Below the pieces are notes generated by a model, which was given only the letters and a program-made list of their open reading frames with translations, did no database searches and had not been told where the DNA came from. Below are positions 5,299 through 34,355 of a stretch of 64,000 nt of DNA, piece after piece. Each line of letters opens with the position of its first letter. The stretch's first letter is position 1. The DNA is from a virus, in IMG/VR virus record IMGVR_UViG_3300042869_001157, positions 1 to 64,000 of that record, one strand, 5' to 3'. The position numbers and the translations under genes were made by a program.

Positions 5299-7338
5299 AT
5301 GGCTTGGAATATTTCTAATAAATCATTAAATGGCCAGAGTGGGAAGTCACTCATTGGTCCTGGCGCTCCAGTTTCGGCAAACCCAAGTTTTGTTGGGCGT
5401 GCCTATCGTGACCCCTGGGATATTGAGCGTGCTTATCGCGAAGGAATGCAGAAAGTCACATGGGTGGCACGCTGTATCGACGCCATTGCGGGTAACCAGG
5501 CTCGCCTCCCTGTCATTCTTCGTAAAGAAAATTCTCCAATCGGTCGCATCGTTCGTGGAGAAACCGCTTCTAAATCATCATTATTGACAATTTTGAACAC
5601 AAAATCCAATATTGGTGAAAATGCGTATATTTTTAGGTATCGCCTTTCTTCTCAAATTCTTCTTGGAACTCGCGGCGCTTTTATTGAGAAAGTTCGTGGT
5701 CGTGATGGCTCAATTATTGGCCTGAACCTCCTCCCCCCTCAATCAACGGCACCTATCCCTGATCCGATTAAGTTTGTTTCTGGATATGAAGTCTTGATGC
5801 CAACTGGGGATAAAATCATCATGAATCCTGATGATGTTATTTGGGTTCGTCGTCCTCACCCGCTAGACCCATATTTGTCATTGACACCTATGGAATCTGC
5901 TGGCATTGCCATCGAAATTGAAAACTTAGCCAAACTATATAACCGCAACTACCTCCTTAATGATGGTCGTCCAGGTGGTTTATTGGTTTTGCGTGGTGAA
6001 ATTGATGACGATGATAAAGATGAGTTAAGGAACCGTTTTAGAGGAAACTTGGGTCGTGTTGGCTCAACTTCTGTTATTTCGGCTGATGATGGCGTTGATT
6101 ATGTTGATACTTCGTCAAATCCGCGTGATGCTGCCTATATTCAGATGCGTCAGATCACTAAAGAGGAAATTCTTGCTTCGTTTGGTGTTCCTGAGTCGGT
6201 TATTGGTAATGCGTCTGGTCGAACGTTTAGTAACGCTGCCGAGGAAGTGAGCGTTTTCTGGAATGAGACTATGTCTCCTCACTTGGAGATTTTGGCACGA
6301 GCACTTGATGACCTTGATGCCGAACATTATGTTGACTTTGATACTTCTGACGTTCCGTACTTGATTATCACTAAGCAGGAGCGCGAAAGATACCTGTTAG
6401 ATGAGCAGAGTCGCGGTCTTATTAGCGTCAACGAATATCGTGAAGGAACCGGTCGTAAGAAAGTTGAATCAGAGTTGGCGGACAGTCTTCTCATGAACCC
6501 CAATTTGACTCCAATCGCAAATACAACGAAACCCACCCCTCCTCCTGGTCAGGGCGGCGTGCCTATGGGTGGCGGTGCTCCTGGCGTTCCTGGGATGCCC
6601 CCTGGAATGCCTCCTGGCGCCCCCGGAATGCCTCCTGGCGCTGATGGGGCTCCTGCTCCAGATACTATGGCCGGAGCACTTATGGCAGAACAGGGTGGAA
6701 TCCCTGGTGCACCTGCTGGTTTTCCTGGAATGGGGATGCCTGGTGGTGGGGTCCCTGGAGGGCCTGAAGGTGCGATGGGTCAAATGTCAGACACTCAGCC
6801 GTTGGCTTATAAGGATGAGGGCACGGAGCGAGATACGGCGATTGTGCGCTGGGAAGAAATTTTGGATCGAAGCCTTGAGCGGGTGCTTGAACGTCAGCAG
6901 CGTGTTGTTTTGGAGAAGGTCGGTGGCAAGAAGGCTAGGGATTTCTTGAGTTCTGGTTCTTTGGACTCTGAAAGTATATTGAATAGCGATACTTGGACTA
7001 AGCAGATGGATGAGGATATTCGTCCTGTGCTTTCGGCTATTTTGAAAGACTCAAAGTCTATTTATGCAGAAAAGTCAGCGGATTATTCTGGTCCTTCGGC
7101 GTCAGATGTTCATGCACATCTTGATGCTCAGATGACTAGAATTAAGTCCATTAACGATGATACTCGCTCTCTTTTGGATATGGCTATCTTTAATTCGTTT
7201 GGAATCAAGAACGAAGAAGAACGATTGAGTGCCCTCAAAACATCTATTGTCAGCATTTATACTGATTTGTTGGTGAAGGTTCGTCCAGAGATTGCTTCGT
7301 CGGAGGCTCGCCGTGCCTGGGACTACTGTAGGCCATAG
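5299..7338 (+). CDS. HK97-type portal protein with Gly/Pro-rich insert
   Basis: Residues about 20-400 form an HK97-family portal: WVARCIDAIAGNQARLP near the N-terminus, RRPHPLDPYLSLTPMESA in the middle, and EILASFGVPESVIG plus TFSNAAEEVSVFWNETM at the end. It makes the dodecameric DNA gate of the head. Residues about 405-500 are a low-complexity Gly/Pro/Met region with collagen-like G-x-P steps. Residues about 510-679 are a separate helical domain (RWEEILDRSLERVLERQQ) of unknown role. At 679 residues it is longer than typical 400-500 residue HK97 portals. The next gene is the protease-headed polyprotein. Confidence 0.93.
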   Translation: MAWNISNKSLNGQSGKSLIGPGAPVSANPSFVGRAYRDPWDIERAYREGMQKVTWVARCIDAIAGNQARLPVILRKENSPIGRIVRGETASKSSLLTILNTKSNIGENAYIFRYRLSSQILLGTRGAFIEKVRGRDGSIIGLNLLPPQSTAPIPDPIKFVSGYEVLMPTGDKIIMNPDDVIWVRRPHPLDPYLSLTPMESAGIAIEIENLAKLYNRNYLLNDGRPGGLLVLRGEIDDDDKDELRNRFRGNLGRVGSTSVISADDGVDYVDTSSNPRDAAYIQMRQITKEEILASFGVPESVIGNASGRTFSNAAEEVSVFWNETMSPHLEILARALDDLDAEHYVDFDTSDVPYLIITKQERERYLLDEQSRGLISVNEYREGTGRKKVESELADSLLMNPNLTPIANTTKPTPPPGQGGVPMGGGAPGVPGMPPGMPPGAPGMPPGADGAPAPDTMAGALMAEQGGIPGAPAGFPGMGMPGGGVPGGPEGAMGQMSDTQPLAYKDEGTERDTAIVRWEEILDRSLERVLERQQRVVLEKVGGKKARDFLSSGSLDSESILNSDTWTKQMDEDIRPVLSAILKDSKSIYAEKSADYSGPSASDVHAHLDAQMTRIKSINDDTRSLLDMAIFNSFGIKNEEERLSALKTSIVSIYTDLLVKVRPEIASSEARRAWDYCRP

Positions 7339-7457: not shown

Positions 7458-10400
7458 ATGTCCAATTTCTCCACGTCAGACATACTTTTCAAAGCACTCG
7501 ATGGTCAAATCAATATTGACTCAGCGCAAGGAATTGTTGAATGTTTCGTAGCCGCCATCGGCAACAAGGACTCGGTAGGTGATGTCATCGTCAGCGGTGC
7601 GTTTACGGAAAGTCTCAAGCGTCGTAAGCCACGCGTAGTTTGGGGACACAACTGGAACGATCCCATCGGTAAGGTTCTAGAAATCTACGAAGTACCAGCG
7701 AACGACCCACGCATCCCCATGAAGATGAAGATGGCTGGCGTTGGTGGACTGTACTCTCGCGTTCAGTTCAACCTTGCAACCGAAAAGGGACGTGAAGCCT
7801 TCGCCAGTGTGGCGTTCTTTGGACAAGAACAAGAATGGTCAATTGGCTACAAGACACTCCAAGCAACATTTGACCCCACAATGCAAGCAAACGTTCTACG
7901 TGAAGTTGAACTATATGAAGTCAGCCCTGTTCTTCACGGCGCAAACCAACTAACCGCAACACTTTCCGTCAAGAGCGATGATGGTGGAGAAAAGTGTGGA
8001 CCTGAAGGAATGCACGGCGGGATGCACGGTGGAATGAACGCCAGCCGACCAGGATCAACCACTATCGATATCCCTCGCTTCAACCTTATTCCGGCAAAGC
8101 CACGATCATTCTCGACAGAGAACGAACGTACCGACATTTTTGCTCAAGGCGAATCTGGACAGTTGGGCGACGAGGCCCGCACAGCACTTGAAATGGAATT
8201 ATCATCACGTTCAGCAAGCCCACTCAGAGTAGTCAATGCAACCGAAAATAGTGTTGTATTTGATCGCACAATGCCAGATGGAACACGCATGACCTATCGC
8301 ATTGGGTACCATCGCGAGTCACAAAGCGGCAGATACATGTTCGGCAAGCCAGAGAAGATGGCTTCACAACAGATAGTTCCATCACAAATGCCTTCAATGC
8401 CAATGTCGGTCAAGCCAGGATACGTAACTCGGTCCTACAGTGATGCGCAGCAGCCAATCGCAATGATGAAATCATTCGATGAGCAACTTGATCAGGCCGT
8501 TGAAATTCTCTCCAATGCCGGAGAAGATGAAACAATCAAAGAAAGCGAATTGCAAAAAATTCAAGACGCCATCGACTATCTACGCAATCTCGCCGATGGA
8601 CAGCAGAAAAAAACTGCTTTAGAATATTCGGTATGGTGTAAGCCACAATATGCATACAAAGTCAAGTCACTACTAGACCCCGTACTCAATTACCATCGCC
8701 TAGAAGCACACGTTGACGACTACGGTGTTCATGTAACTAGCGGGCTCAATGAAGATTCGCTACAGGCACTCAGATCAGCCCATAAAAATATTGCTTCCTA
8801 CCTTGATGGTGGCGGTGGTTCAAAAAAAGGTGATGGGGCGCCTAACACCAAAGCCGCCCCCAAGACCAGAATAAAAGCCCTTAGTGGCAAAATTGGTCCT
8901 AAAATTGGTGGCGGTTTGCGTGCTGCTCCTGCAGGCATGGCATTCGTCGACATCACTGGCGTTACTGACGCCGACTCTGACGGCATTGTTTTTGAAGGTA
9001 AACCAGGCTTAGAACGACCAATTATTCCTCGCTTTATCGTACCTAAGAACCTTGCCAGAAAACTTTCAAGCATTGTCGAAGGCGATGCCGAATCAATTGA
9101 GAAGCAGCGTCGTGCAGGTAATGGCAATGTTTCTTTTGATGAAAAGAAACTTCGCGGGATTATTGATGACATCGGTGGTGACCCCAATCTCTTGCAGAAT
9201 ATTTCTTCTGACGGCATGCGCTCGCGTGGCGAAATGCGACCCATTGGTTCTGACTTACCATTTGATCTACAAACTGGCAAACCACGCAAACGATTTGATG
9301 AAACTGATGAGGAATTTGCAAAAAGAACTCGCCCACTTGCGTTTGATTTGAGGCAGACAAAACCTAGCAAGGCAAAGTATTCTATTACGAATTTCTCCAG
9401 TCGAAGCGGCATGCGCTCACGACGTGGTGAATCAAAAGAACGAAGAAAGGCTATTTCGGAAATCGATGACGCAATTTCATTTACCGAGTCATTGAAACGT
9501 TCCGACGATGGTCCTGCTTTCTTTTTTTCTGATGGCATTGAGGCAGCAAGCGATTTTACCCGTGCTCTTGAATACAATAATCTGTTCAAGTATCTTGATT
9601 ATGAGTCAGATTCTGATTCCGATTCAGGATATCGCGTTAGTCTTGATTTGGAATCAATGGATGATTCTGAACTAAATGACCTTATTGATATTCTTAATGA
9701 TGGTCAAGAACCCGAAGACTATCTTGAAAAAATTCCAACTGATGATTCTCGTGGCATGCGTTCACGCTCGGGTGATCCGGAAATCGATTATCAACTTGAC
9801 GAACAAGATGACCGTCAGTTCCGTGACAATCGTCTTGATGCACCGCGCAAGAAGCCCCAGAAGTCGATGCGAGAACTTCGTGAAGAGAATCGCCTGAAGC
9901 GTCAGCGTGAGGCAGAGAATGACCCCGAGTACATTCAGTATATGCTTGACGAGCAAGCAGACATGCAGCGCGATATGGAACGCGAAGAACGTGGCATGCG
10001 TTCACGACGTGGTTCAACTTATAGAGAACGTGGTCCAAGTTATGAAGAGCAATTCGAGGACCTAGATCAAGATTCTGGTCATTTCAATAATTTACTTGAA
10101 CGTACTGTCGAAACAATGATCGAAGATGACGAACTTGACCCGAAGGACGTTGATTGGTCAAACATTCTTGACAATGAAAAAGTAATGAGTCGTGCCGAAG
10201 AAATGTGGAATTCTGACGTTGAAGATCATTGGGCTGATGTTGGCGAACGACAGCGCGATGACCGTGGCATGCGTTCACGACGTGGCTATGTTGGTCCTCC
10301 TGATTCGTGGTATGAGCCAGATGACGATCCTTTGGAGCCACTAGAAGAACTAGTCGGTGAAGAGTGGAACAGGGGTGACTCGGATAGATATTACGAGACT

Positions 10401-13400
10401 GCTCGCGATTGGACTAGAGAAAATGTAGACCAATACAAGGACATGACTGATGATGAATGGGATTCCCTTTTGGATGACGTCAATGCATCAGACGACCCTA
10501 TTGCAGCAATGCATAAATTGTTTAAAGAATACGATAATTCCGACGCCTTCGATGATGATATTCGTCGTTTTGCCGAAAGTGATTTAAATAGTTTTGATGA
10601 AGATTACGATGACCGTGGTTTCCGTTCACGTCTTGGCGACGCGGTACGTAAGCAAGGTCGCGAAATTGGCAAAGACCTCAAGAGAGAGGCTAAGAAATTT
10701 GCTAGAGAAAAGGGTCGCGAACTCCTTGATGATGCTGTAGACAATATTTTTGATCGCAACAGAAGAGATCGCGGGATGCGTTCGCGTAGATTCAGGGAAG
10801 ATAGCAAGCCAGACAAAAAATTAAAACCAGCGTACGGAAGAAGAGGGCCAGTTCAAGCACTTCAAAATATGAGTGACGAGGAACTTGTTAAACTTCTTCA
10901 ATCGTATGGCGAAACGGCATGGCGTCCATGGGACAGGAATCCACAATCTTCTTCCCTCCTTTTGAGAGATCGCCCATCATTGAGTTCTTTGGTTCAAGAA
11001 CTTGATTCACGTGGTTACGACGTATATCAAAGCGAGGGACGTGAGCCTGAATATTTCGGTGATTATTCCGCCGGAGATAAGAGCGTTTATGCACGCAAGC
11101 GCGGACAAGAGCCATCACCATTGGAAAGAATGCTCAATGGCGAAATGTCATGGGGAGTGGAGGAAGAAACAAAGCCGCAAGATGTCATTGACTCCCAACT
11201 AGAAGATCGTCGTCGTAGCGAAAGCAAAACATGGAAAGCAACAGTCCCTGACGACTACAAGCCATCAGATGGTGCCCTAGAAACTCTGACACCTGCTGAA
11301 AGAAGACTTCTAGAGACTTTTAAGCCAAAATCTAAAGCACAACGCAAACAAGAAATGCTTGATTCTTTCCGCAATCAAGCAAAACGTGATGTCGACAGCA
11401 ATAAACCTTACGATACTTGGGATTGGTACCCCACTTTCGAAGAGTGGGATCAGGAATACAAAAAGAAATTGCGCCAATACAGAAAAGCGCAAAGAAAAGC
11501 CTACGCCCACGATCTAGAAAAAGGCAATGTCAAGCCAGTAGAAGAGCGTGCTGTTCAGCAAACTGGCTGGTCAGTAGAAAATCTTGACTGGGATAACTTT
11601 AAACCAAAGCCTCTTCGCTTTGGACCTTATGGCGGTCCTCGCGACGTACCGGAACTACTTCGTGGTTTCCGTTCAAAAATTACTGATGGTTTAAGAAATG
11701 AACGCGATAACAGCGTTAAATCTACGACAACCATAGAACAACGAGCATTCGATATTCTTGCCCAAATGTCGCAGCGTAGCGGCCAGAAATTTGGTTTGAG
11801 CGATAAAGAACTGCAAGACATTTTTGATGGTGACCAAAAGATTAATCCCGAATTGATGAAAATTGTTCGTTCTGAACTAAAGCGTCAAGGGTTCACTAAA
11901 GATGATGTTGCAGATGTATTGAGTGGTCGCTATGCGGGGTATGCCCGAAATAAAATATCCGGAGCACCAGACGATGCTGATCGTGTATTTGAAGGAGAAA
12001 TGGAATCTATTTCCAATCGTGCATTCCAGGAATCGATGGACATACTCAGCGATGGGTTGACCATTGAAGAATTCCAAGATTTTGTTTCTTCTGGCAGAAT
12101 TCCTCAAGGCAAAGAAAGCATCTTGAGACGCGCCAATGAAGTGTATGACAACATTGTTCAAGATAGTGACAAGCAGCGCGCAATGGGCCTACGTTCTCGC
12201 ACAGGACGCAATATTGATGCAGAAATCGACACCAATATCAAGAAGCAACGCGATCTTGAAAAAGAACTCGATGATGAAAAAATTGATTTAGCAGAATTCC
12301 GTCGCCGTCAAGCACCATTACGCCAAGAGTTTTCTGACCTACGTAAAGAGCAAGGCGCTCAATCAGCAACTAGAAAAGCGCCAGAGTTAGATGCCACTGG
12401 TCGTCCACGTCGTGAAATGATTGAACGTGACGAAAAAGGAAAAGTCAAATTTGATTCAGAAAAATTCTTAGCAGAACAGAATAGTAAGCGTCGTTCTACG
12501 ATGTCGGAACTTGGTTTCACTGAAGAAGAGATAAATGCTTTGATGGGTGCATCTTCTTCTGGCATGCGTTCACGAGGCAGATCGAACGAAAGTTTCAAGA
12601 ATGCTCGCGCTCTGTACTCATCTAAAAACAAAGAAAAAATTGCCGACAGATTGACAGAACTTACGCAACGTCGAAATGAACTTAATGCCAAATCAAAAGA
12701 ATTATTGGATCAATATTATGCCAATGGGCGAGATTTTAATGATGAAGAAAATGACATTTATGATGAAATTGAAAATGAATTAGACGACGTCAATGACGAA
12801 ATTAGAGGAATTTCTGATTGGGCAAAATATGCGACAAGTGAAGACACTCAAAGATGGGTTGGTCGAACTGGTATTAGAAAAACCCGTATGGCTTATAGAA
12901 AAATGCTTGACGACGGTGAAATTAGTCAAGGAAAATACGACAGACTCCTTGAGGACCTTATCGACCCTACATTTTTTGATGATGAACATTGGGACAGCGT
13001 AGGCGCCATCCCGTTCATATCATATCTTCGCGATGTTTTTGAAGATGATGATGACATCTTCGTAGATGTAGATAACCAATTATTGACATCTGAAAAAATT
13101 GATGATTTGTCATCTGATTTTGCTGCAGAAAAAGTTGCAGAAGGCCTTGCTAACTTAAACAACAGAGGAATGCGTTCGCGTTCCGGAAAAAAGAATAATT
13201 CCGAAAAACGCAAAATGGTCACGAAGTTGACTCCAGATCAAGTTCGTATTATGCAAGAACAAAAACTTCGTTCAAAGAAAATTCCTGGCAAGAAAAAAGA
13301 TGGCCCGTCCAAGAATGAGTGGGGTTTCCGTTCACGCGAAGACTTTGGCAATTCTGCTGGCGCAGCAATCAACTATTTGAGCGAAATTTTCTCTAAAGAC

Positions 13401-16400
13401 AACAATGATTTGTCTTCTAACGAAAAATATTTGCGTCGCCACCTCTTGGATAACGGAATCAAAATTGATTTCTATCGCGGAGGTCGCGAAGGCTCTATCG
13501 GTTCAGATATCTCCTTGCGAGATAACGATAGAGCAGGCATGGACGACAAACTAGATGCTTTATTGAACACAATATCTAAAGATAAAAAAGCATCAGATAT
13601 CTTGTCTGATAACGGATTCTTAATGGATGATCGTATTTGGGAAACTATGCCCTCATACAAGAATCGCCCAAACCGAAAAGGACCCAAATTAGGTGACAGA
13701 GAACGTGGTGTTCAGGCGCGAGCAAACATTACAGATTTAGCACCTGGTGATGTTCTCCCCGAAAATTGGGATGATGAAACTAGTGCTGTTGGTGGGCCAA
13801 TGGTTCGTATTGCCGATATTCGTAGTGATGGTCAAGAAGATGGCTACGTCACGATGGTGTTAGAGAACATGTCTGATGGTACTACTGAAACACGCACATT
13901 TGGTACGAATGACACATTCCCGAACGTAAGCAGACCGTCTGGTTCTCGTGGTGGACGTCAGCAAGGAATGCGATCCAGAGGTGGCGGGCAATACTGGACC
14001 GACGGCGCACACAGGATTTGGATTTCCGATGATGAAGAACAAAATAGTGACGTCGGAGTCGATGCCATGCGAGATGGTTTCCGACCAGAGGGTGGCTCGG
14101 GTAGCGGTAGAGACTACTACCCATCTCGTCGCCGAAGATACCCCACGAGTACCCCCAAGCAAACAGCACCAAAACCAGATGATGGAGATCAATTAATAAG
14201 CGATGCTTCGTCTATTACTGGAAATGACCTTGCTGCGTCCATTGTTCAACAATATAAACAACGTGGCCGACTTACGGACAAACAATGGAATGCACTACGT
14301 GGCATAGTTTCTAAAAACAAAAAACCATCAGCCGGTCCATCTGCAAAAGAAGGAGTAGATAAGGCTGAAGATATTGCGCCTTCACTTTCCAATGAAGATA
14401 AGAAGGCAATCATTGAGGCTGCTCGTGGTTTAAGTGGTGATTTTGCGAAAAGTGTTGTTTCTCAATATAATTCTCGTGGCCGTTTAAGTGACAAGCAGTG
14501 GGCTGCACTAGATAAGGCTACCCGCAAAATACGTGGTACCTCTACTAGTGCTGGCATGCGTTCACGGGCAAATACTGGATCAATTAACTGGGATGAACCC
14601 GACGAAAACTGGGGAGATGGTGCGGGCGGGGATGTAGAAACATGGACGTTGCCAGATGGTGGCTATTATCAAATCTCCCGTTGGGAAGGCGGCGGGAATA
14701 ACCCTGGCGGTTCAGTCGCTACAGTATATGACGCCAACAATAAACAAGTTGCACGAAGTGAAGAATTTGGTTGGTATTCAGACGACGCAAAGAAGTTCTT
14801 GCAGGATTATCACAAAGAAAATACACCTACAGAAGGTGGCATGCGTTCACGTCGTTCTTACGATGACGAAAGTGGTTCGCGTGGGGTCCGCGAAGGAGTC
14901 GCAGAATCTGAACATTTTGAAGGCTCCATGTGGATTGATCAACTCAAGGGCGACAATGTTGATGCCGATGTTATTCCATTAGCGGATATTTATGGTGACG
15001 ACAGGCCTGGATATGGCGTGGTCGGCGTTTATAGAACTGACGATGGATTCGGTGGGATTGAGTATTTCTATGGCGGAGACGATGAAGAGTTCGATTCTGT
15101 TGAAGACGCCATGGACTTCTTGCAAAATGTCGAAGACCAGGGTAATGAGGACATTCTGTATGGTGATCCGGAATTCCGTAGTCTTGACCGTGTTCGTGCT
15201 GCAGGAAAGCCTGGCAGACGTCCCCTAGAAGGATTGCGTTCACGTTCTGGTGGAACGTCAGCAAATGTAGAAGCAGACCGAAGAGATGCTGCCGACAATT
15301 CCGTATCCAACCCAATATCGCCTAATCGCCTTAATGAACTTTCGGGTAGCGATGATGTTGAAACTAGAATAAATGTTGCAAACAATGATGGAGCATTCTT
15401 AGAAACAGTTAATAGATTGCTTGAAGATGACGATCTTGACGTTCGTAAGGCTGCAGATGAGAATATTCAACGACGCTTTGGCGCTATAGCAAACCAGCCT
15501 GGTTCGGATCGACGTAAGCCTGCCTCGCGTCAAAGACGAGAAGCCGCGAAAAACTATTTGGCTCAGCATGAAGAGCGAATGCAGAAAGCCGGCATGCGTT
15601 CCCGCACTATGCGCGAACAAGACCCAAGAGCATACGATGACGTTTATGAATTGATCGATCAAGGTTTGTCTGATCAGGAAATTTATGATTCGCTTGCTTC
15701 TTCGCGGATATCGGGCGCGCGAGAAATAACATTATCTAAAATTGGTCAAATCCGTTCTGGTGGCAGGGAATTAACTCAGGACTCAAATAAGCGCGGATTT
15801 GTAAGAAAAAAGAATACGCGTAAAATCAATGACCGATTTGATGGACAGCAAGTGGCTCGTTTGAGTGCTTCGCGTGGTGGCCGTTACGGTGAGCGTGCGG
15901 ATATCGAAGAAGGCCTCAGTGATGTGCAAGAAATTGCTGACGGCATGCGAAGCAAAGCCGGAACAGGGTTGGGCGAATCACGCGAAATCTATCCTTCACG
16001 CAGAATGGCCGAAAGTAGTGCTGTTGACTTCGTTCGTTACGATGCCGCTAAAGAAGAGTTGGTCGTCCAATATAAGGGCGGCGGCGCTTACGTATTTGGT
16101 GGTATTTCTGCTGATGACGCAGACAGCATTGAAGAAGCAGAGAGTCTTGGTAAAGCACTCAATGATGTGAAGCGCAATGCGACATATTCCGTTAAGCCGA
16201 ATGGTGATGTTAATGGTGTTGAGTCAACGACTGCTGATTTCTTGGAACGTGATTTGCGTCGTGTCCCACTAAGCGAAGACAACAGGTCCGTATACGGTAA
16301 CGCTATTCGGTTACTTCGTGATGGGGTTGATGAAGATAGCGACTTTGCACAGGTTCAGTCTCAGGTTACAAACATAAGCAACCTTGCAAATGAGATGTGG

Positions 16401-18434
16401 GAAAATGATGAGTATGCCGCATCTAATTTCTTGTCAGATGCAGCAGAGAAAATCAATAAGAAACTTAATTCCGTTAGAGGTCAGGGCGGTTTCCGTTCAC
16501 GCGCCGGAGCAAGACATCAACGCATGGAAGTCAATCTTTCCGTAGATGAAATTGGTTTAATTCGTGATGAAATTCGTGGGATTACCGCGAAGCATGGCGG
16601 AAATGGCCTAATTACTTACGGTATGAAGAAGTACGATAATCTTCTTGAAGAGTTACAGAATCAGAAAAAATCTAATCCTGGTCGTTCTTTGATAGTTCTT
16701 TCCTCGGAATACGACAACGTTATGACGGCGTACGATGAATTGGAGAAAGTTGATCCATCATGGATCAAGATGTTTGGTGCCGATCCACTAGAAATGGCCT
16801 CAGTCAGCAAAGAAGGAAAGTACATCAGCCCCAATGTTGATATGCCTGGCGAGGAATTCGATGGCAAGCGCATCAATAACGGTGCTCCAGCAGATATCAC
16901 TCCAAGAATGCAGGGTCAACTTGTTGACTGGGGTCGTCGTCAGCCTAACTTCCGCATAGTTAAGGGTCTCATTGAGGCTCATAAGAAGAATAACGGCACC
17001 ATGACGGCGCGTCAGTGGAGTACTTTGCGCAACATGTTTGACCGCTTCTCTGAAGAGAACCGTAGTGGTGGAGTTAGATCACGAGTTGGTTCTGGTATGC
17101 GTTCAGAAACTGGCAGCGCCGTGTCTAGTTCTCGTACAGGAAAGGGCAAGGGTCCTCGCTCGGCTAAAGATGTTCTTCCTGAAAACTATGAAACTTTGTC
17201 ATTGGATGAGAAGTTTGATGCATTAATTTCTGCAGGTAAATACGATGAGTCGACTAATCCTAACGGTATCCAGGTTGGTGAATATAACGCTGCGTTTAGA
17301 CGTTTGCGTGATGCTGAAGATGAGCAGGACAGAATTACTGCTCGTCGTGAGGCCCTTGCTGAAAGAATGAAGCGTTCGGCGGAGGCCGGTCCGGTAACGC
17401 GTCGTCCGGAAGTTATGGAGCAAGAGTCACCTCGTCGGGCGAATGATGTTGAGACGACTCCTGAGAAGCGGGCGGCATTGGCGAAGAGGACTCGCCAGAA
17501 GCAAATGTCGGCTATTGAAAAAGTCGTTGCTAAGGCGCAGGACAGTATTAGTGGTGCAATTATTGATGGTGATGCTGAAGATGAGCATGGCAACGTCTGG
17601 AATGAAGTGATGGATTTGGTTCAGGCTGAGGATGGCGGCGATGACGCTGACTTGACTCTTTCTAAATTGAGTTCGATCATTGAGGCACTTGATGATTACA
17701 CTATTGGTTTTGAGGGCGAGGAAATGAGCCCAGCGGAACGCAAGAGTGTCAATAACGCTACTAAACTCAAGAACACCCTTGAGGAATTGTATGACGATAT
17801 AGATTCTGATCCGTTCATCAAGCGTGGAAGCACTTCCCGTGAACAAACAGGGATAACTCTCGCTGGAGAGGAAGATGATTCAATTCCACGATTTATGACT
17901 GGAGAAGGTTTACGTTCTCGTTCTAGCCTAGTCAATGGTTATATAGGTGCTCGTAAGAATGCCGAACGTCAACCCAGAGCGGGCATGCGTTCACGTTCTG
18001 GAACTGAACAAGATGGTCGCGCTGAAATTCGCTGGGAAGCAACTGAGTTCAATAAGGTAGAACAGTCGTTGAGTAGGGAAATTTCTGAAGCACAAAAGTC
18101 TGGAGATTCCAAGACTGCTAATGCACTCAGGAATTTGACGAAGATTATGGATAGGCAGAAGTCTGGCGATGTTGGTGGAAAGAGGACTAACGCTGGTGCT
18201 TTGTATCTTACTCAGAATGAACTTGATGATGTGATGGATGCTTTGATGCATGTTGTTGATCGTCAAACTCAAACGGATGGTTCCAGAACCAATATGTTCG
18301 CCCAAATGCTTGACAAACTGGCCGAAGCGGGCATGACAACATTTATCAGAAAAACAGCAAAACCGGTTAATTCTCGATTTGTAGAAAAAACAAACGAGTC
18401 CGGCAGAACTGTAAAGATTCCGCTCAATGAATAA
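7458..18434 (+). CDS. Giant polyprotein with N-terminal S78 prohead protease
   Basis: A 3658-residue protein, the largest in the window. Residues about 18-175 are a Caudovirus prohead serine protease (Peptidase_S78): VWGHNWNDPIGKV with His64, EWSIGYK with Ser128, and LYEVSPVLHGAN. A DADSDG loop follows at residue 504 with RPIIP, inside a 105-residue module that is also found in the 2517-aa protein. From residue 586 onward about 23 copies of a GMRSR-type motif punctuate the chain. Between them are small modules: three GxLTxKQWxAL modules (around residues 2258, 2315, 3152), a HEAT/LRV-like segment (about 2618-2674) and a KTSC-like domain (about 2843-2913). The rest is acidic, charged and unrecognised. 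It is not a tape measure: it lies between portal and capsid genes and lacks long coiled coil or transmembrane segments. AAGGAG precedes the ATG. Confidence 0.93.
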   Translation: MSNFSTSDILFKALDGQINIDSAQGIVECFVAAIGNKDSVGDVIVSGAFTESLKRRKPRVVWGHNWNDPIGKVLEIYEVPANDPRIPMKMKMAGVGGLYSRVQFNLATEKGREAFASVAFFGQEQEWSIGYKTLQATFDPTMQANVLREVELYEVSPVLHGANQLTATLSVKSDDGGEKCGPEGMHGGMHGGMNASRPGSTTIDIPRFNLIPAKPRSFSTENERTDIFAQGESGQLGDEARTALEMELSSRSASPLRVVNATENSVVFDRTMPDGTRMTYRIGYHRESQSGRYMFGKPEKMASQQIVPSQMPSMPMSVKPGYVTRSYSDAQQPIAMMKSFDEQLDQAVEILSNAGEDETIKESELQKIQDAIDYLRNLADGQQKKTALEYSVWCKPQYAYKVKSLLDPVLNYHRLEAHVDDYGVHVTSGLNEDSLQALRSAHKNIASYLDGGGGSKKGDGAPNTKAAPKTRIKALSGKIGPKIGGGLRAAPAGMAFVDITGVTDADSDGIVFEGKPGLERPIIPRFIVPKNLARKLSSIVEGDAESIEKQRRAGNGNVSFDEKKLRGIIDDIGGDPNLLQNISSDGMRSRGEMRPIGSDLPFDLQTGKPRKRFDETDEEFAKRTRPLAFDLRQTKPSKAKYSITNFSSRSGMRSRRGESKERRKAISEIDDAISFTESLKRSDDGPAFFFSDGIEAASDFTRALEYNNLFKYLDYESDSDSDSGYRVSLDLESMDDSELNDLIDILNDGQEPEDYLEKIPTDDSRGMRSRSGDPEIDYQLDEQDDRQFRDNRLDAPRKKPQKSMRELREENRLKRQREAENDPEYIQYMLDEQADMQRDMEREERGMRSRRGSTYRERGPSYEEQFEDLDQDSGHFNNLLERTVETMIEDDELDPKDVDWSNILDNEKVMSRAEEMWNSDVEDHWADVGERQRDDRGMRSRRGYVGPPDSWYEPDDDPLEPLEELVGEEWNRGDSDRYYETARDWTRENVDQYKDMTDDEWDSLLDDVNASDDPIAAMHKLFKEYDNSDAFDDDIRRFAESDLNSFDEDYDDRGFRSRLGDAVRKQGREIGKDLKREAKKFAREKGRELLDDAVDNIFDRNRRDRGMRSRRFREDSKPDKKLKPAYGRRGPVQALQNMSDEELVKLLQSYGETAWRPWDRNPQSSSLLLRDRPSLSSLVQELDSRGYDVYQSEGREPEYFGDYSAGDKSVYARKRGQEPSPLERMLNGEMSWGVEEETKPQDVIDSQLEDRRRSESKTWKATVPDDYKPSDGALETLTPAERRLLETFKPKSKAQRKQEMLDSFRNQAKRDVDSNKPYDTWDWYPTFEEWDQEYKKKLRQYRKAQRKAYAHDLEKGNVKPVEERAVQQTGWSVENLDWDNFKPKPLRFGPYGGPRDVPELLRGFRSKITDGLRNERDNSVKSTTTIEQRAFDILAQMSQRSGQKFGLSDKELQDIFDGDQKINPELMKIVRSELKRQGFTKDDVADVLSGRYAGYARNKISGAPDDADRVFEGEMESISNRAFQESMDILSDGLTIEEFQDFVSSGRIPQGKESILRRANEVYDNIVQDSDKQRAMGLRSRTGRNIDAEIDTNIKKQRDLEKELDDEKIDLAEFRRRQAPLRQEFSDLRKEQGAQSATRKAPELDATGRPRREMIERDEKGKVKFDSEKFLAEQNSKRRSTMSELGFTEEEINALMGASSSGMRSRGRSNESFKNARALYSSKNKEKIADRLTELTQRRNELNAKSKELLDQYYANGRDFNDEENDIYDEIENELDDVNDEIRGISDWAKYATSEDTQRWVGRTGIRKTRMAYRKMLDDGEISQGKYDRLLEDLIDPTFFDDEHWDSVGAIPFISYLRDVFEDDDDIFVDVDNQLLTSEKIDDLSSDFAAEKVAEGLANLNNRGMRSRSGKKNNSEKRKMVTKLTPDQVRIMQEQKLRSKKIPGKKKDGPSKNEWGFRSREDFGNSAGAAINYLSEIFSKDNNDLSSNEKYLRRHLLDNGIKIDFYRGGREGSIGSDISLRDNDRAGMDDKLDALLNTISKDKKASDILSDNGFLMDDRIWETMPSYKNRPNRKGPKLGDRERGVQARANITDLAPGDVLPENWDDETSAVGGPMVRIADIRSDGQEDGYVTMVLENMSDGTTETRTFGTNDTFPNVSRPSGSRGGRQQGMRSRGGGQYWTDGAHRIWISDDEEQNSDVGVDAMRDGFRPEGGSGSGRDYYPSRRRRYPTSTPKQTAPKPDDGDQLISDASSITGNDLAASIVQQYKQRGRLTDKQWNALRGIVSKNKKPSAGPSAKEGVDKAEDIAPSLSNEDKKAIIEAARGLSGDFAKSVVSQYNSRGRLSDKQWAALDKATRKIRGTSTSAGMRSRANTGSINWDEPDENWGDGAGGDVETWTLPDGGYYQISRWEGGGNNPGGSVATVYDANNKQVARSEEFGWYSDDAKKFLQDYHKENTPTEGGMRSRRSYDDESGSRGVREGVAESEHFEGSMWIDQLKGDNVDADVIPLADIYGDDRPGYGVVGVYRTDDGFGGIEYFYGGDDEEFDSVEDAMDFLQNVEDQGNEDILYGDPEFRSLDRVRAAGKPGRRPLEGLRSRSGGTSANVEADRRDAADNSVSNPISPNRLNELSGSDDVETRINVANNDGAFLETVNRLLEDDDLDVRKAADENIQRRFGAIANQPGSDRRKPASRQRREAAKNYLAQHEERMQKAGMRSRTMREQDPRAYDDVYELIDQGLSDQEIYDSLASSRISGAREITLSKIGQIRSGGRELTQDSNKRGFVRKKNTRKINDRFDGQQVARLSASRGGRYGERADIEEGLSDVQEIADGMRSKAGTGLGESREIYPSRRMAESSAVDFVRYDAAKEELVVQYKGGGAYVFGGISADDADSIEEAESLGKALNDVKRNATYSVKPNGDVNGVESTTADFLERDLRRVPLSEDNRSVYGNAIRLLRDGVDEDSDFAQVQSQVTNISNLANEMWENDEYAASNFLSDAAEKINKKLNSVRGQGGFRSRAGARHQRMEVNLSVDEIGLIRDEIRGITAKHGGNGLITYGMKKYDNLLEELQNQKKSNPGRSLIVLSSEYDNVMTAYDELEKVDPSWIKMFGADPLEMASVSKEGKYISPNVDMPGEEFDGKRINNGAPADITPRMQGQLVDWGRRQPNFRIVKGLIEAHKKNNGTMTARQWSTLRNMFDRFSEENRSGGVRSRVGSGMRSETGSAVSSSRTGKGKGPRSAKDVLPENYETLSLDEKFDALISAGKYDESTNPNGIQVGEYNAAFRRLRDAEDEQDRITARREALAERMKRSAEAGPVTRRPEVMEQESPRRANDVETTPEKRAALAKRTRQKQMSAIEKVVAKAQDSISGAIIDGDAEDEHGNVWNEVMDLVQAEDGGDDADLTLSKLSSIIEALDDYTIGFEGEEMSPAERKSVNNATKLKNTLEELYDDIDSDPFIKRGSTSREQTGITLAGEEDDSIPRFMTGEGLRSRSSLVNGYIGARKNAERQPRAGMRSRSGTEQDGRAEIRWEATEFNKVEQSLSREISEAQKSGDSKTANALRNLTKIMDRQKSGDVGGKRTNAGALYLTQNELDDVMDALMHVVDRQTQTDGSRTNMFAQMLDKLAEAGMTTFIRKTAKPVNSRFVEKTNESGRTVKIPLNE

Positions 18435-20383: not shown

Positions 20384-20407
20384 CTACAACAGGGATTGGA
20401 GCCCGGT

Positions 20408-23400
20408 ATGACGGGTAGAGGTATCCCTCAACGGAATAAACTTTCGCCACGTTTGAACGTGCCTGTCCGCAATTATGACGGAAAGGCTATGTACTTCCGT
20501 GAACGACAGAAGTTCTCATTAACTCAACCATACTTGGATGCAGATATTGCGGTCAAAGTTTTGGCCGAGGGCATGGTTGCTACCGGTTCTGGTGGGGACA
20601 GGGAGATGACTGGTGATGACGATCAGCCGGCTATGGCTGAGTTTCGTTTCGATCCCCTGGCTCGCCGTCAACCTGGGCAAGTACTAAAACTTCACACTAC
20701 CTATAAAGAAGCGACGACCCCTGGTGATGATCATAACTGGGGCTGGGTTGATCCTGAGCCCGAATTGTCTGATGAGGATCGTCTCCAGTTATCCGAGGAG
20801 GCTGCTGATTTTGTTAGTAAGCGTCCCCAGGTTATTGTTCGTCAATTTCTTGTTGATAAAGATGGGAACGAGACTGGTGAAACTAACGAAATTGCGGTAA
20901 AGCAGTTGGGTCCCACCATAAATGACATGATGCCTGGACAAGCAATCAAATTACGTAAGGCTATTGCTAAGGGTATTGTTATTGATGCCAACGGACAAAT
21001 GCGTTGTCCTCCCGGCACTCCTAACGCCAACCAATTCACCGATGTCGATATGTCTAATTGTTTCAATATTGGTGTTGGTGCTGTTCAAAAAGAGATTCGT
21101 CGTATCCGTGGTTTTTGGAAAGAGTGGAACGAAGATGTAGCAGCGATTCGCTCTGCTCGGACTGCTAAAGAAAGACTTGGTAAGGCTAAAGAGAACTATA
21201 CGAGCCTTGAACAGAATGCTGAATGGCTTGCCCGTAATGAACAATCTATTCAGGATGCTTATGAGACTTTGGGGATTGATTTATCTCAGTTTACGCCAGA
21301 GCAGTTAAAAAACAATGTTCATCTCTTTACTGCCATGGATGAATTGTTCAAAAATCATGATGGTCCTGAGTTTAGAAGATTTTTGCATGATGCCATTGGT
21401 TTCAAATGGGATGACTCTAAGAGTGTTGATGAAAATATGAAAGATTACTGGGAGACATTACGTGAGACGGCTTACAAGTTGGTTCCAGAGGAAGTTAAAA
21501 AAGCGTTATTGATTGACCCGTCAACAAAGAAGCCCATTTATCCCGATCAGTACGATGAAGCGCAAAAAATCGTTGACATGATGATTGATCGATTTAGGGA
21601 AGTTCAAGAAGGCATCATCCATGGTGCTTTGGTGTCTTTTAATGATAATCCTCAAATGTTTCAAACTTTGCGCGAAATTGGTTTTGATGCTTGGAATGGA
21701 AGAGTTGGCCTAAATGAATGGATGAGTTATGAGGGCATCACTAATCCTATTACTGATGAACTAAGCCCTGGTAGACTTGGCACTCAAATAAATTTCAATA
21801 CCTGGGCGCTTGCATTTAAGCCTTTGATTGATTTGAGAAAACTGGAAGGAGAAGGTAGGTTTGAAATTGATCTCAAGCCCGTGGATGCCCAAGGCACACC
21901 TTTGAGCGATATTGAAAAATTAAAACAAATACGCGACATTATCGCCCATTCTAATGAAGTTGATCATTTTATTCATGGTGTTGGTTATGCGAACGAACAG
22001 TCATCTGCTCGTGCATCCGCAGTGGCTGGTATGTCTCCCGCAAAAGCCAAGGCAATGCACGTTATGTTTCATGAGTTTGGGCATGTTTTACAATATGCCG
22101 AAGCACAAAATGCGATTATCGATTATGTGAACAAGCATGGTCAACTTGTTGTTACTAATAACGGCGCACTCAATGTTCTTACTGGTGATTGGCGAACATG
22201 GTCCAATAATGATTGGTACGATGCATTGAATACTGTCATGAGAGGAACTTTTGAAGGGATGAATTATCCGCCAGTTACCGTTGACTGGTTAGAGGATTCA
22301 ATGCTTCACCTTCTTGCTGGACAGTATTATCAAGATGAATTAGGAAAATGGCAGCGAATGCACCTTAGTGGGGGTGAAGGCTCCCCGATGTTAAAAAATG
22401 CCCAGGTTGGTTTGATGATTCAGGAGGCTCGCGCTGAGTTGTATGCGTTGAGGCAGATGGGCGTTATTTCTGGGCCAGATATCGACAAGGCTATTGGTGG
22501 TATGGATGAGGTGAGAAGGCCTCCCGGTATTGAATTGGCTTCGCGTCCTATTTATGATGCCCCTACGGAGAATATTTCTAGACTTGTTCCGAAAAGTATT
22601 TTTTCAGATAAAAGAGATTTACGAAGAAAACCCGAATACCCCCCCGAAGTTACTAAACTTGTCAAGAAAATGAAAAAGGAAAATTATACTCCTGAACAAA
22701 TATTGAATGAGTTAAATGCTGGTGATCCTGAAAATCCTAAGTTTACTTTGGATGATGTTAATAACATGATCGGCGATACAGGGGCAGATGACGTTCCTTC
22801 GGATTGGAAGTCCCCCGAAAGAGAAAATGGTATTCCTAAATTTGATCCTGCAAATGGTATTTATGCTGACTGGTCACCCGATCCAAATGATGATGGGAAA
22901 ACGCGTCAAGCAAAATTAAATCAAGCCATAGAAGATTATGCATATTCTGATGAATTTTTGCAAGATATGGAAGATGCTGGTTTTGATCAGACCGACGAAA
23001 ATCATATGGGTGATTTTGTTGGAACAAAAAAATATAAAGAAGGTTTAAAAAAATATCAAGAAAAATATGGCAAACCTTCATCCGATAGCGGCAATAAAAC
23101 AAACGAAGAAGGAACCTCCATTCCTGATGAGACACTTCCAGAACCTAAGAAAAAACGTGACATTCCGGCATGGGATGGACAAGTGGACCCGTTTGCAAAC
23201 GATTATTCAGAAGTAAAGTTAACGGATGCTTTAATTGACGATTACACTAATACAGACTACACAATTGATGAACTCGCAGAACGCTATGACCGTACGCCGG
23301 AAGAAGTCAAAGCCAAAATTGATTTGGAACAAAAACTAAATGGTCCCATACGATCAGCCGACTACTATGCTGCTCTCAAGAGGGGCGAATGGGTTAATTA

Positions 23401-26400
23401 TAGAAATCCGAACGAAGACGACAAGTATTCAGATGACAGTAGGGGTTACAGAAAATACAAGGATGGAATATATCCAAGTGAACGGGAGTATGAGATACGA
23501 AAGGAGGGTGGCAAGACTCAAGTTCGCCTAAGGCAAATTCCCTCTTCGGAAGACACTGCACCAGTTACTCCTGCTTCCAACCCTAAGGAGTGGGGACGTC
23601 AGAGAAGACAAGAAATATTAAATACAACAGAACCAGAAACCGTTGCTTTATTAGATGGGTCTATTCCTCCCGATAAACGCACATCGACGTCATCTTTGTC
23701 GCCACGCAATATTGATACAACACTCAGAAACTCAATGAATGCTCGTAGTAAAGCAAAAGAAGAAGCAAATACCATTGCAGCGCCCACGCCAGACGCTGAG
23801 TCACCTTTGCTTGATGAGGAAATTAGAGATGCGGTAGCCCCAATGTTGTTCCACATTGACTCACATGAATTTGATGAAGATATGTCGGTATTGATGGTTA
23901 TTGATTTGCCAGAAAATTATGAAATTGGCGGAGGAGATTTTGTTAATTTCGAAATGCCAATGCGTGGAGTTTTGCCAGGCCGTCTTCAGCCAAAGTCTTC
24001 GGGAAATAAGAGAGCGGTTCGCGTGATGTTTCCTGCCGGAAGTCGTGGAGTTATTGTTGGTAACTCTTACAATGGCGATAGCGATGGTGTACTCTTGCCT
24101 CCCGGCAGAGTTTCTTTAATTGATGTTGATGAGAACGGCGTTATTAATGCAATAATTGCTTCTCAGGAAAATCCATTAGAGACATTGAAACGTATGGATG
24201 GAAACATTGATGATGTTTCTTCTGCTGAAGGTGCTGACGATTTTATTAGGGGCGAAGCATCGATTGTTAAAGCAGAAATTGGTAGACAGATTGATAAGTA
24301 TGCGAATAGTGAGCGTGGTCGGGGTATGCGTTCACGTTCGCGTGGCAGCAGCAATGATGCTTTGACTCGAAGAGATCAAAAGCAACGAAATGATTCTATT
24401 TCTAGCATTATGCGTAGGAAAAATAGTGCCCCATTTAATGTTGATAATAATTTTTCTGCTCGTCACAGAAACCCTGATGGGACGGCGTTGTCTACCCAGT
24501 GGGGCGACGTGGTCCCACGTGAAGTTCATGTAGATAGACGCAACAATCGTGTTACTGCCTCAATTGGGCGTATGAGAAATATTTTGAATGGTGATGTCGC
24601 TCCTTCTAGTGAGAGCGAATTCGATTTTATTAACAATATTGATCCTCGTGTCAAAAATTTGTTGAATAATCGATCTCCAGAAGAAATTCGTCAACTCATT
24701 GATGATGCCTATGTGGATTTCCATAAGGGTTTTGATGATCGGGTACGCATTCCGATGAATGATAACACGTTGAATGGAATGATGTCTGAGGGCCGCCTGA
24801 AGGCGATTCAAGAAATTAAACCGAATAGTCCTATTTCTAAACTTAAATCAGACCATGAACTGTTTTTGGGTTACGATCCGGAAGTTTCTAATAACATGCG
24901 ATCAATTTCTGGATATATGGTTCATCGTAATGCTAAAAATGTTATTTCTGATCACCTTGATTCAATACCAAGCGACGGCATCAATAGAAACCCAGATTTC
25001 TTTCATGAAAGTGGCGACATTCAACCGATGGGTGATGTACGCATTGGTGGAAATGACATTGATCTAGTGTTAAAACCAGAAGTTGCTTCTCGTTCAGCAT
25101 ATTCGCGTGGTGAAGCAATTCGTTCACACAACTACCCGACTCCAGTTTTGTTTGACAATCCCGGGGATGTCGGATCGGCTCACTTAAACGAGTCAATCAC
25201 TTCAGGTAATTCCGACGCTGACAGAATGCGCAATATTACTAATGCTCTACAAAATGTTATTGACAATAACTTCAGTGGTTCACTTTCTGATGACATTTCA
25301 GCAAGTAGATCAGAACGTGCACTCAGGCCAGGAAATAAATATGAAGCACTTGTTGCCGGTGGAGTGAGTTTGGATGACGTTGCTGAAATACGTTACCCAG
25401 TAAATAAACTTGACATAAATAATGAAAAGTTAGATATGAATTCCTCGATAGGCGACAGCGGGCGAGAACTATTGAAAGTTAATGGTTTTGGTGACGGGGA
25501 GATTGACGAATATTTACGTATGGTTGATGACGGCGAAGTCGAACTTCAATCTGCCCGCTGGCTAAAACAACATCGTGCCGCTAAGAAGTTTGAAACAGAT
25601 TTTAGAAAGAAAAACAATTTTGATGGTCGTATTGTTTTTACTAACTCTGATGGTATAGACCTTTTGTCTCCTGAAACTTTTAGGGAACATCCAAATTCGC
25701 GTGGTCTTCAGACTGTTGAGCAAATGTTGTCGGCAAGAATGCTTGCCGATATGGCACCGAATATGAAGAAAACTTTGAAGGCTATTAAGAAGTCTCCTGA
25801 TGCTCAGGCTCGTATTCGTTCTGCACAAATTGGTCAAAACAAAAAACCGAATGTTGATGTTCCGAATGCTGGTTCGCGTATAAATAGTATTGAAGATAAT
25901 GAAGTCGATGATATTTTTAATTCCTTAACTGATGATTTAAGAAACATTGCTCAGGGTGTCGATGTGGAGGATCGCGGAATGCGTTCACGTTCCGTCCCAG
26001 AAAATTTACCCCCTGAAACGTTCTCCTATGGAGACCCAGAGAACGCTGACGTTCCTGGCAAAAAAGCGTTCCGTGACAATTCAATTTATGTGACCAGAAA
26101 TGATGACGGAACATTTAACGCTTACACGATTGAAAACTATCCTGGCACTGAACTTGGCTATTTGAGACAGGTCGGAAATAATAATCACGAGAGTCTTGCT
26201 GCAGCAAAAAATGCCGCTAACGGTCGAAGTAAACTTTCCTCAAGTGGTCGCGGGATGCGCTCCATTACTGGTAGTAACGATTCCAATGCTGCACGAGAGT
26301 CCAGAAGACTTACCGGCACAAATTTTGATGAAATGAGCGATGAGGAACTTGATAAAATTATCAATGAAGGAGATACATCTCAAATAGGTGGAAATCGTGA

Positions 26401-32331: not shown

Positions 32332-34355
32332 TGAACTCTTTTGAGATCATTAAACCAAGCAAATGCTGTCCTGATCAGCAGATTGTTGTTCAACGCCATG
32401 TTCTGACAGCAAAAAATGTTGATGGCAATGCATTTGTTGGGTCTATTGCTTCAAAACAAGAAATAGTCAACTACAAAGCAATGGTGAAAATGCTTGGTCT
32501 TGGTGACAACTATCGAGTTAAACGTGTCGGCACCATCGGTTCATCTTCCACTATTGGACAAACGGCGCAGGCAGTCGGTTCATATTTCTTGCCTGGCGAT
32601 ACGTCAATCCTGAGAAGCCCTATTCGTTCAACCGGATTTTCTTTACTAACCCCAGGAACACCCAATATCCCCAGACTTCCTAGTATGCGCACTGGTCGCG
32701 ACAAAGTCCATAGATGTCCTGAAGGATTTCAGTATGGCGGTCGTTTTACAGATAATCAGTTCACTACATGTGGAGCAAAATTGTTCGACATTCCAAGCCC
32801 TCTTGGATTAGCCATGTCTGCTTTGCGTGCGTTACGCAGGGGAACAACCCTGAAGCCCATTCCTGTAGAAGGAAGGGCATTGACCCCGGGAGAGTACGGA
32901 GGATCAGTGATTGATTCTCGTGCACCACAAATCCCACGAGTTACAGATAGTGATGTCAAAAAACAACTTGAAAGTATTAGGCAAATTGTCAAAGACATGA
33001 ATCAACCGAACCTTGATGCCAAGAGAATGGTACGGCGTGACGGGTTCATTCTGGAACCAGTGGTATCTCCAAAAGTTTTGAGAACCATTCCCGATAACCG
33101 TGACATGGAAGGGGCAGCATACATTTTAAATGCAAATAATGTTTCTACCCTCGGTGGCGAAGAACTTGGGTTGCTCTCAAATACTGGAGTAACCAAACTT
33201 ATGTACGTTTTACCTGGTGGATCAACACTTAGTTTAGAAAAAGTTAGACCATTAACCGTTGGTGAACGTCGCAAACTTGGTAGAACAGTCAATGCTGCCT
33301 CTCGTATTGATAATAGTCAGATCGCTGCGGCAAGACTGATGTCTGTTGCTGAAGAAACTGGTGACGGGATTCAATATTCTGAAAATTTTGTTGGTGTCAG
33401 CAACCCCCATAAGAGAATTGCTACAAGAAATGGCAAAATGGTTGAAAGTTGGGTTGGTCAAGTATTTGCCAACCGCAAAGGCAAGCCATTGCCCGAGACG
33501 AGACAGACTTCTTCTGAGGCTGGCATTTCTGAAAAAATATCTTCACTTCAAGAAGCGATTGAGCATATTGCGGCGGGTGGAAGTCTTGCTTCTATTTCCC
33601 CCGATATTCTCCAACAGGCGCTTATTCAGGCTGGATTATTCAAAGCACGCAATATTGGCAATAATCAGAAAATTTTCGACGGACCCAATGGAAGATCGTA
33701 TTTGTCTATTAGTCCTATTAATGATTTTGAACATTTGAACGCAACTCTCGTTTCTGATATTCAACAGCATTTTGGTATTGAATCTCCAGACGTTTATCCA
33801 TATGGCTCGGGTCCTCGTCGTTCATATTTGAAAGAAACTTCTGGGACTGTTTATCCAGGAAATGTGCCATCTACCAGCAAACTATTTAAAGATGGCGACA
33901 TTTCTCATGTGGCTGCGCTTTTAGTGTCCGACTTATTGATCGGTGATTCCAATAGGTCGCCCGCAAGCGTCGAAATTATAGAATTGTCAGACAAAAATGC
34001 GGTTGTCCCGACCATCAACTTGCCCGATTTTACTGAGATTCAAAAGAAAATCAAGACCCCCGAAGAACTCATCAGACAAATGGCATCACTTGCTGAAAAT
34101 GGCTCCTATCAGGAGTATTATAGAGAGTTGAAGAGTCAACAAAAAAGACAATTCCTTGCCATCATCAATAAGTTGCTAGCAAGAGCACGGGCTTTTAATT
34201 TTGAAAAATATCAAGCCAGATTTGTTATTGATGGAAGATTGACCGAAGTAGAAAAAAGTCATTTACTAATAATGCAGAAGATAGTCAAGCAGAGAATTGG
34301 CTCTCTGGAAAGAGCCGGAGATTTGATCCGGAATATACTTGGAGGATTTCAGTGA
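32331..34355 (+). CDS. Large hypothetical protein with kinase-fold-like C-terminal motif
   Basis: A 674-residue protein. Around residues 128-150 it has HRCPEGFQYGGRFTDNQF plus a cysteine, the same C-P-x-G...FTD pattern as in the 2719-aa protein. Around residues 500-560 it reads RRSYLKETSG, then VAALLVSDLLIGDSNRSP, which recalls the catalytic-loop region of HipA/PI4-kinase-like folds (D-x-LIGNxDRxxxN), though the usual Asn is not evident, so a degenerate or unrelated fold is possible. It has neither the DxDxDG loop nor GMRSR motifs, unlike its large neighbours. Start and stop overlap both adjacent genes. Confidence 0.82.
   Translation: MNSFEIIKPSKCCPDQQIVVQRHVLTAKNVDGNAFVGSIASKQEIVNYKAMVKMLGLGDNYRVKRVGTIGSSSTIGQTAQAVGSYFLPGDTSILRSPIRSTGFSLLTPGTPNIPRLPSMRTGRDKVHRCPEGFQYGGRFTDNQFTTCGAKLFDIPSPLGLAMSALRALRRGTTLKPIPVEGRALTPGEYGGSVIDSRAPQIPRVTDSDVKKQLESIRQIVKDMNQPNLDAKRMVRRDGFILEPVVSPKVLRTIPDNRDMEGAAYILNANNVSTLGGEELGLLSNTGVTKLMYVLPGGSTLSLEKVRPLTVGERRKLGRTVNAASRIDNSQIAAARLMSVAEETGDGIQYSENFVGVSNPHKRIATRNGKMVESWVGQVFANRKGKPLPETRQTSSEAGISEKISSLQEAIEHIAAGGSLASISPDILQQALIQAGLFKARNIGNNQKIFDGPNGRSYLSISPINDFEHLNATLVSDIQQHFGIESPDVYPYGSGPRRSYLKETSGTVYPGNVPSTSKLFKDGDISHVAALLVSDLLIGDSNRSPASVEIIELSDKNAVVPTINLPDFTEIQKKIKTPEELIRQMASLAENGSYQEYYRELKSQQKRQFLAIINKLLARARAFNFEKYQARFVIDGRLTEVEKSHLLIMQKIVKQRIGSLERAGDLIRNILGGFQ

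Follow-up and report, generated by a model that had tools for sequence, protein, structure and literature searches.

Apparent ribosomal slippage in the prohead protease gene of a group of uncultured tailed phages, with a separate protease and a giant fusion protein as predicted products

How a head maturation protease comes to stand in front of several thousand further residues, and whether it is also made without them, is the question raised by a 64-kb stretch of DNA (64,000 nucleotides, here called the window) from the 66.6 kb IMG/VR virus record IMGVR_UViG_3300042869_001157. An open reading frame (ORF) of 3658 amino acids (aa), open from its ATG (7458..18434, + strand), encodes an S78 prohead protease followed by a polyprotein-like array of beads. 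An earlier note on this DNA had described a prohead protease with intact His64 and Ser128 heading a 3658-residue protein, and this description is borne out by the uninterrupted frame, the Pfam match, 25 relatives and independent contigs. Residues 24-168 (7527..7961, +) match Peptidase_S78 (PF04586; 6.8e-11, 43 bits against a Pfam gathering score of 21), and the catalytic-type residues H64 (7647-7649), S128 (7839-7841) and E154 (7917-7919, all +) are invariant in an alignment of the 25 relatives. Because the identical fused layout is found in independent IMG/VR contigs (L002, L003, L006-L008), an assembly artefact is excluded for the fused ORF. In the 25 relatives the conserved protease unit stops near residue 455, at the predicted end of the short product described below. 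About 3,490 residues lie C-terminal of the S78 domain proper and about 3,200 C-terminal of the conserved unit; Pfam recognises among them one KTSC domain (residues 2852-2907; 16011..16178, +), and the remainder consists mostly of unannotated domains. The structure predicted for the 458-aa short product is a low-confidence model (pLDDT 60.7) with no PDB fold match at E<=0.001, and no PDB sequence was matched in a profile search either. Judged from its sequence, the S78 protease is active-looking and stands at the head of a giant, probably packaged polyprotein.

The surrounding genes are those of a phage head. The portal protein is encoded immediately upstream of the protease (5299..7338, +), and the HK97-type major capsid protein (MCP; 49490..50797, +) follows 31 kb downstream, past further giant ORFs on the same strand. 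The second giant ORF (20396..28567, 2723 aa) contains a HEFGH zincin motif, an RNase_T exonuclease and six G[ML]RS linkers, the third (34352..41905, 2517 aa) a DxDxDG motif, pentapeptide repeats, two KTSC domains and about 15 G[ML]RS linkers, and the fourth (42307..49152, 2281 aa) a zeta toxin-like kinase, pentapeptides, ArdC-N together with MPTase-PolyVal and five G[MLF]RS linkers. Behind the protease unit of the first giant ORF lies the motif DxDxDG...ERPIIP (8967..9044, +), which is conserved in sequence comparisons and marks the start region of a separate polyprotein gene in relatives. Its general form DxDxDG...RPxIP, with an EF-hand-like loop, is found a single time close to the N-terminus in many giant ORFs (at 8967, 29047, 35105 and 43024 of the window, and in relatives) and may be an element of packaging or folding which they have in common.

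IMG/VR contains more than 500 relatives. A close one of 125 kb (G002), whose protease is 97% identical, also encodes proteins which we take, by sequence likeness, to be tape measure-like and tail-sheath-like; the window is thus assigned to a tailed phage with its tail region beyond the window. In a scan of GTDB genomes the only matches were three MAG contigs with the labels Gammaproteobacteria and Phycisphaerae, which do not fix the host. The nearest cultivated phages infect Actinobacteria. Elsewhere in the window an intein bearing a LAGLIDADG endonuclease splits the large terminase (2549-5020, −); this intein is probably mobile, since the terminase of the 97%-related G002 is uninterrupted (434 aa). 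Between 51086 and 55187 acidic low-complexity neighbour ORFs have RPIRGPGNPGR-like repeats in common and overlap one another in different frames (53598-53794).

At the junction between the conserved protease unit and the beads, codons 456-457 form the slippery heptamer A AAA AAA (8822..8828, +), which is conserved in relatives. The junction of the window reads GGT GGT TCA AAA AAA and stays open in frame 0; after a −1 shift it would be read as AAA AAA AGG TGA, with a TGA stop (8831..8833, +) two codons past the heptamer. The predicted product of a −1 shift is a protease of 458 aa ending in GGGGSKKR (7458..8833, +). At the same spot the −1 frame of two relatives reads AGA TAG (L009) and AGA TAA (L031). 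Fold prediction places a hairpin GGGGCG...CGCCCC (8835..8860, +; outer pairs 8829-8867) 6 nt 3' of the heptamer, with a z of -1.9 in comparison to dinucleotide shuffles and -2.8 in comparison to synonymous recoding; its stem is kept in L004, L009 and L025. With -17.1 kcal/mol the fold 3' of the junction is the most stable among the in-frame candidate heptamers of the window. A blastn search with the junction against cultivated phages gave no match.

In relatives with a protease domain 84-86% identical to that of the window, the protease is an ORF of its own with 460-490 codons, followed by a separate giant ORF. The two ORFs overlap, with the giant ORF running open through the junction in the −1 frame, where the protease ends in GGT GGT TCA AAA AAA TAA or in TAC AAG CGC CCT TAG. 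A shift would therefore end the protease in the fused genomes, whereas in the split genomes, with their stop in frame 0, it would lead into the giant ORF. In two of the split loci (L010/L011) the conserved block ESKGLGPKIG...APP sits upstream of the first ATG, GTG or TTG; as no such start precedes the block, its translation is most simply explained by a −1 shift at A AAA AAA. The default product is thus predicted to be reversed between fused and split genomes, with both products retained. On the protease tree the fused or split state changes at least three times. One lineage (L034, L035, L036) has plain split genes without a slip site and a giant ORF behind its own ATG, and offers a natural control for the fusion. 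An internal stop with the protease made separately had been named in the earlier note as what would refute a single polyprotein; a stop of this kind is present in a form which the note had not foreseen, the conserved −1 site ending in AGG TGA, and in close relatives the protease is indeed a separate ORF.

Two scans of IMG/VR yielded 57 distinct junctions; A AAA AAA or G GGA AAA is present in 45 of them, 36 fused and 9 split. The background for these in-frame heptamers is 52 in 126,597 codons, or 0.025 per 60 codons; the junctions are related by descent, and their counts are not independent trials. The codon ahead of GGA AAA is GGG, CTG, TCG, CCG, TGG or AAG, so that the residue varies and G is kept throughout as the last base. 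With the amino acids taken as given, a heptamer has mostly a chance of 0.01-0.2 per lineage, values which describe each lineage and are no independent test, as the junctions were preselected for the heptamer. All 36 heptamer-bearing fused junctions have a −1 stop (TGA, TAG or TAA) within 13 codons, and in 15 of the 36 it stands exactly at codon 2, for which the background probability is 8.5%. Behind the heptamer the RNA is predicted to fold more stably than expected, both in comparison to synonymous recoding (mean z -2.19, n=30; 27 of 30 below -1) and in comparison to dinucleotide shuffles (mean z -2.16, 37 sequences). Compensatory changes are seen in the stem and the pairing is lost when the partner is slid; the covariation is modest against shuffles in each small alignment. 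Ten fused junctions possess neither heptamer, and some of these carry C CCT TTT or T7 instead. Slip heptamers of all these kinds are missing at the L181 and L191 junctions, and no hairpin was found at those of L203/L211. Taken together, the sequences display a heptamer conserved beyond the amino-acid constraint and a 3' structure a few nucleotides downstream, as is characteristic of programmed −1 sites. The slip cassette is very probably real, and in all likelihood both the short protease and the giant fusion are made; we infer that frameshifting takes place in vivo.

Where the protease would cut is indicated by a motif which recurs in the head proteins. HK97 is cleaved at K103/S104 (PMC10275583). 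In the window the likely S78 motif is K/[SAT][LIM]xG, with a cut after Lys. Candidate sites are K12/A13 (LFKALDG; 7491..7496, +) for autocleavage at the N-terminus of the protease, K8/S9 (NKSLNG) in the portal protein, K110/S111 (EFKSLNGG; 49817-49822) at the delta boundary of the MCP and, just behind the slip site, K473/A474 (TRIKALSGKIG; 8874..8879, +) for release of the protease. The N-terminal form [FY]K[AS]xxG is present in 79 of 80 loci of relatives, the MCP form [EQ]FK[STA]L in all 15 full-length related MCPs as well as in the window, and NKSLNG and its variants near the portal N-terminus in relatives. Over the whole genome K[AST][LIMA]xG is mildly enriched in the window (11 against 3.8) and occurs at about chance level in G005 and G017. 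Some split relatives have K-G or K-Q at the junction, so that the conservation of K/A at this position may reflect the following domain. Self-release of the protease from the polyprotein by cleavage is plausible in view of the sites at its own N-terminus, in MCP and portal and at residue 473. The span 7458-9230 of the earlier note ends at the first GMRSR linker (residue 586), which is a less likely S78 cut site.

This linker is the first of 23 of the form G[MLFV]RS which divide the bead array (residues 586-3513; 9213..17996, +). The pattern [GAS][MFLVI]RS has 24 matches in the 3658-aa ORF against 1.4 expected from shuffles, and G[MLFV]RS amounts to 50 in the giant ORFs of the window, far more than shuffled sequences give. 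Across genomes the linker occurs in dialects (GMRSR, GLRSS, GLSSG, GSKST, GM[SR]S, GFSSST, GFAS, SSRS and STRS); a single one dominates the giant ORFs of each genome and recurs in its tape measure protein, where it sits at a Gly-rich joint near residues 540-640 (G002, G009, G010, G017, G031). Since the dialect is uniform within a genome and shared by giant ORFs and tape measure, a reader acting in trans is suggested. The motif is encoded by varied codons (26 of 26 distinct 15-mers in G010, 14 of 14 in G024), so that selection acts on the protein, and a repeat or recombination site at the DNA level is ruled out as the cause. Internal starts at the ATG inside GMRSR are ruled out as well by dialects without Met. 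A cut by S78 at residue 586 was dropped as the leading idea because the dialects vary while the sites of MCP, portal and protease keep Lys. The chance that the linkers serve as sites of proteolysis at all is slightly better than even.

Several explanations of this arrangement have to be weighed. We regard it as fairly probable that the protease gene is recoded, with the fusion as frame-0 product and the short protease as −1 product, that S78 cuts at K/[SAT][LIM]xG and that the bead array is carried into the prohead. Ribosomes remaining in frame 0 would make the 3658-aa fusion, and some would slip at A AAA AAA (8822-8828), aided by the hairpin, and stop at AGG TGA to leave the 458-aa protease. 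S78 would then cut after Lys at its own N-terminus, at the portal N-terminus, at the delta boundary of the capsid protein and at K473/A474, the last cut freeing the protease from the polyprotein. The fusion would carry the beads, a polyvalent-type effector, into the prohead, and the short product would supply extra protease. By analogy with frameshift-fused viral proteins (PMC5009743) and with the ejection proteins of T4 and SPN3US (PMC7411985), we give roughly even chances to the proposal that the fusion brings polyvalent cargo into the head and is freed at K473/A474. The conserved slip cassette, its two reading outcomes, the constant K/S or K/A motif and the genome-specific linkers can be seen in the sequences themselves; cut sites, packaging, delivery and frameshift efficiency are inferred. 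A coincidental heptamer and hairpin without functional frameshifting, fused and split genes being two mere gene architectures, would fit the minority of relatives in which the cassette is missing; we consider this very improbable in the face of 45 distinct junctions conserved despite amino acid change, of the −1 stops and of a fold beyond codon controls. A single self-cleaving product, with S78 cutting every GMRSR linker in all giant proteins, is improbable too. The minimal frame of GMR/SR, a hydrophobic residue, Arg or Lys and Ser, resembles FK/SL of the MCP and K/S of HK97, the linkers are non-random and their Ser keeps its position in all dialects. However, in GLSSG, GFSS and GFAS the invariant Ser follows Ser or Ala, and the genomes with these dialects retain Lys in MCP and protease N-terminus; linkers occur also in the tape measure protein outside the prohead and in genomes with a separate protease, and a short protease is predicted besides. 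Of the self-cleaving packaged polyprotein proposed earlier, the active-looking S78 and a plausible self-release at K/[SA]LxG thus remain; cleavage near residue 586 and processing of the other giants by S78 at their linkers are not supported, as the linker changes between genomes and can have Ser or Ala for Arg where the MCP site stays K/[STA]L.

As a reader of the linkers S78 is unlikely, since Lys is retained at its other sites in every dialect. A different protease, either a packaged zincin (for example the MPTase-PolyVal or HEFGH domain) or one of the host, may cut them and free the beads during or after ejection, a possibility to which we give somewhat less than even chances from the sequences at hand. 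In each of the eight genomes examined, giant ORFs contain HExxH zincin motifs; processing of polyvalent proteins by zincins has been proposed before (Iyer et al. 2017, PMC5512222), the dialect is common to proteins expected in the cell, the tape measure included, and the diverse codons point to selection on the protein. It is more doubtful that the linkers stay uncut as spacers or as binding motifs for a phage chaperone or packaging factor, uniform per genome by co-evolution. A binding partner acting in trans would also give uniformity within a genome and a changing dialect; however, the position between unrelated domains suits processing better. Similarly tentative is a combined picture in which a dialect of the genome's own, in giant head proteins and tape measure, is cut or otherwise handled by a co-evolving phage or host factor and forms, together with the recoded protease fusion, a two-stage, polyprotein-style delivery in a dsDNA phage.

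The ingredients of this arrangement are each known already. The S78 proteases of Caudoviricetes (HK97 gp4 type; Gordonia GMA6 and DalanDe, Brevibacterium Cantare) have the same domain, the same catalytic residues and the same set of portal, protease and MCP, and those of GMA6, DalanDe and Cantare are about 40-42% identical to the protease of the window. HK97-type and actinophage proteases likewise have Lys before Ser or Ala at candidate cut sites. In comparison to these proteases the window adds about 3,200 residues fused at the C-terminus and the slip cassette at the junction; a scan of the GMA6, Cantare and DalanDe protease genes found neither an A AAA AAA nor a G GGA AAA heptamer. The capsid maturation protease gp27 of the cultivated phage DalanDe (L082; 1634 aa) is a reverse fusion, in which the beads come first and about 1,110 residues precede S78, with QYKAVPVGG ahead of the protease. 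In tailed phages, tail chaperones and some capsid proteins are known to use programmed frameshifting.

Polyvalent proteins combine ArdC-N, MPTase-PolyVal, zeta toxin, nuclease and other domains in one giant chain; an assemblin-like peptidase fused to them is always C-terminal, and zincins were proposed as their processors (Iyer et al. 2017, PMC5512222). In their KTSC, ArdC-N/MPTase, zeta and pentapeptide domains the giant ORFs of the window resemble them. The polyvalent make-up of disparate effector domains in one polypeptide is seen in the ORF at 42307-49152; in the 3658-aa ORF Pfam finds only S78 and KTSC. What differs from the polyvalent proteins described (PMC5512222) is that S78 is N-terminal and recoded here and that the beads are parted by a genome-specific linker. 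In dnaX a −1 shift yields the short product, with reversed roles in some species (PMC5009743); the likeness lies in an A AAA AAN heptamer with a 3' hairpin and a shift to the short product, here in a phage head gene. Retroviral Gag-Pol and the capsid-polymerase of totiviruses package a partner by frameshift fusion to a capsid-assembly component, with cleavage next (PMC5009743); here, in contrast, the virus is a dsDNA tailed phage and the fusion of the window lineage is the in-frame product. The internal proteins and Alt of T4 and the ejection proteins of SPN3US have N-terminal targeting parts which the prohead protease trims before delivery to the cell, the SPN3US motif being AXE (PMC7411985). 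The protease motifs there are different, and in the window it is the protease itself which would act as targeting part.

A literature search did not find frameshifting joined to a prohead or capsid maturation protease, although descriptions outside the literature searched could exist. In this group of uncultured tailed phages a ribosomal slip appears to yield both a protease alone and a giant fusion, like Gag and Gag-Pol. Because the cassette is kept through a reversal of the default product, it is suggested that making both products matters. For a search for the processing enzyme, the genome-specific linkers provide material that can be compared at once. Should the fusion direct polyvalent effectors into heads, this would explain how such giants are packaged and would represent a Gag-Pol-like logic in a dsDNA phage.
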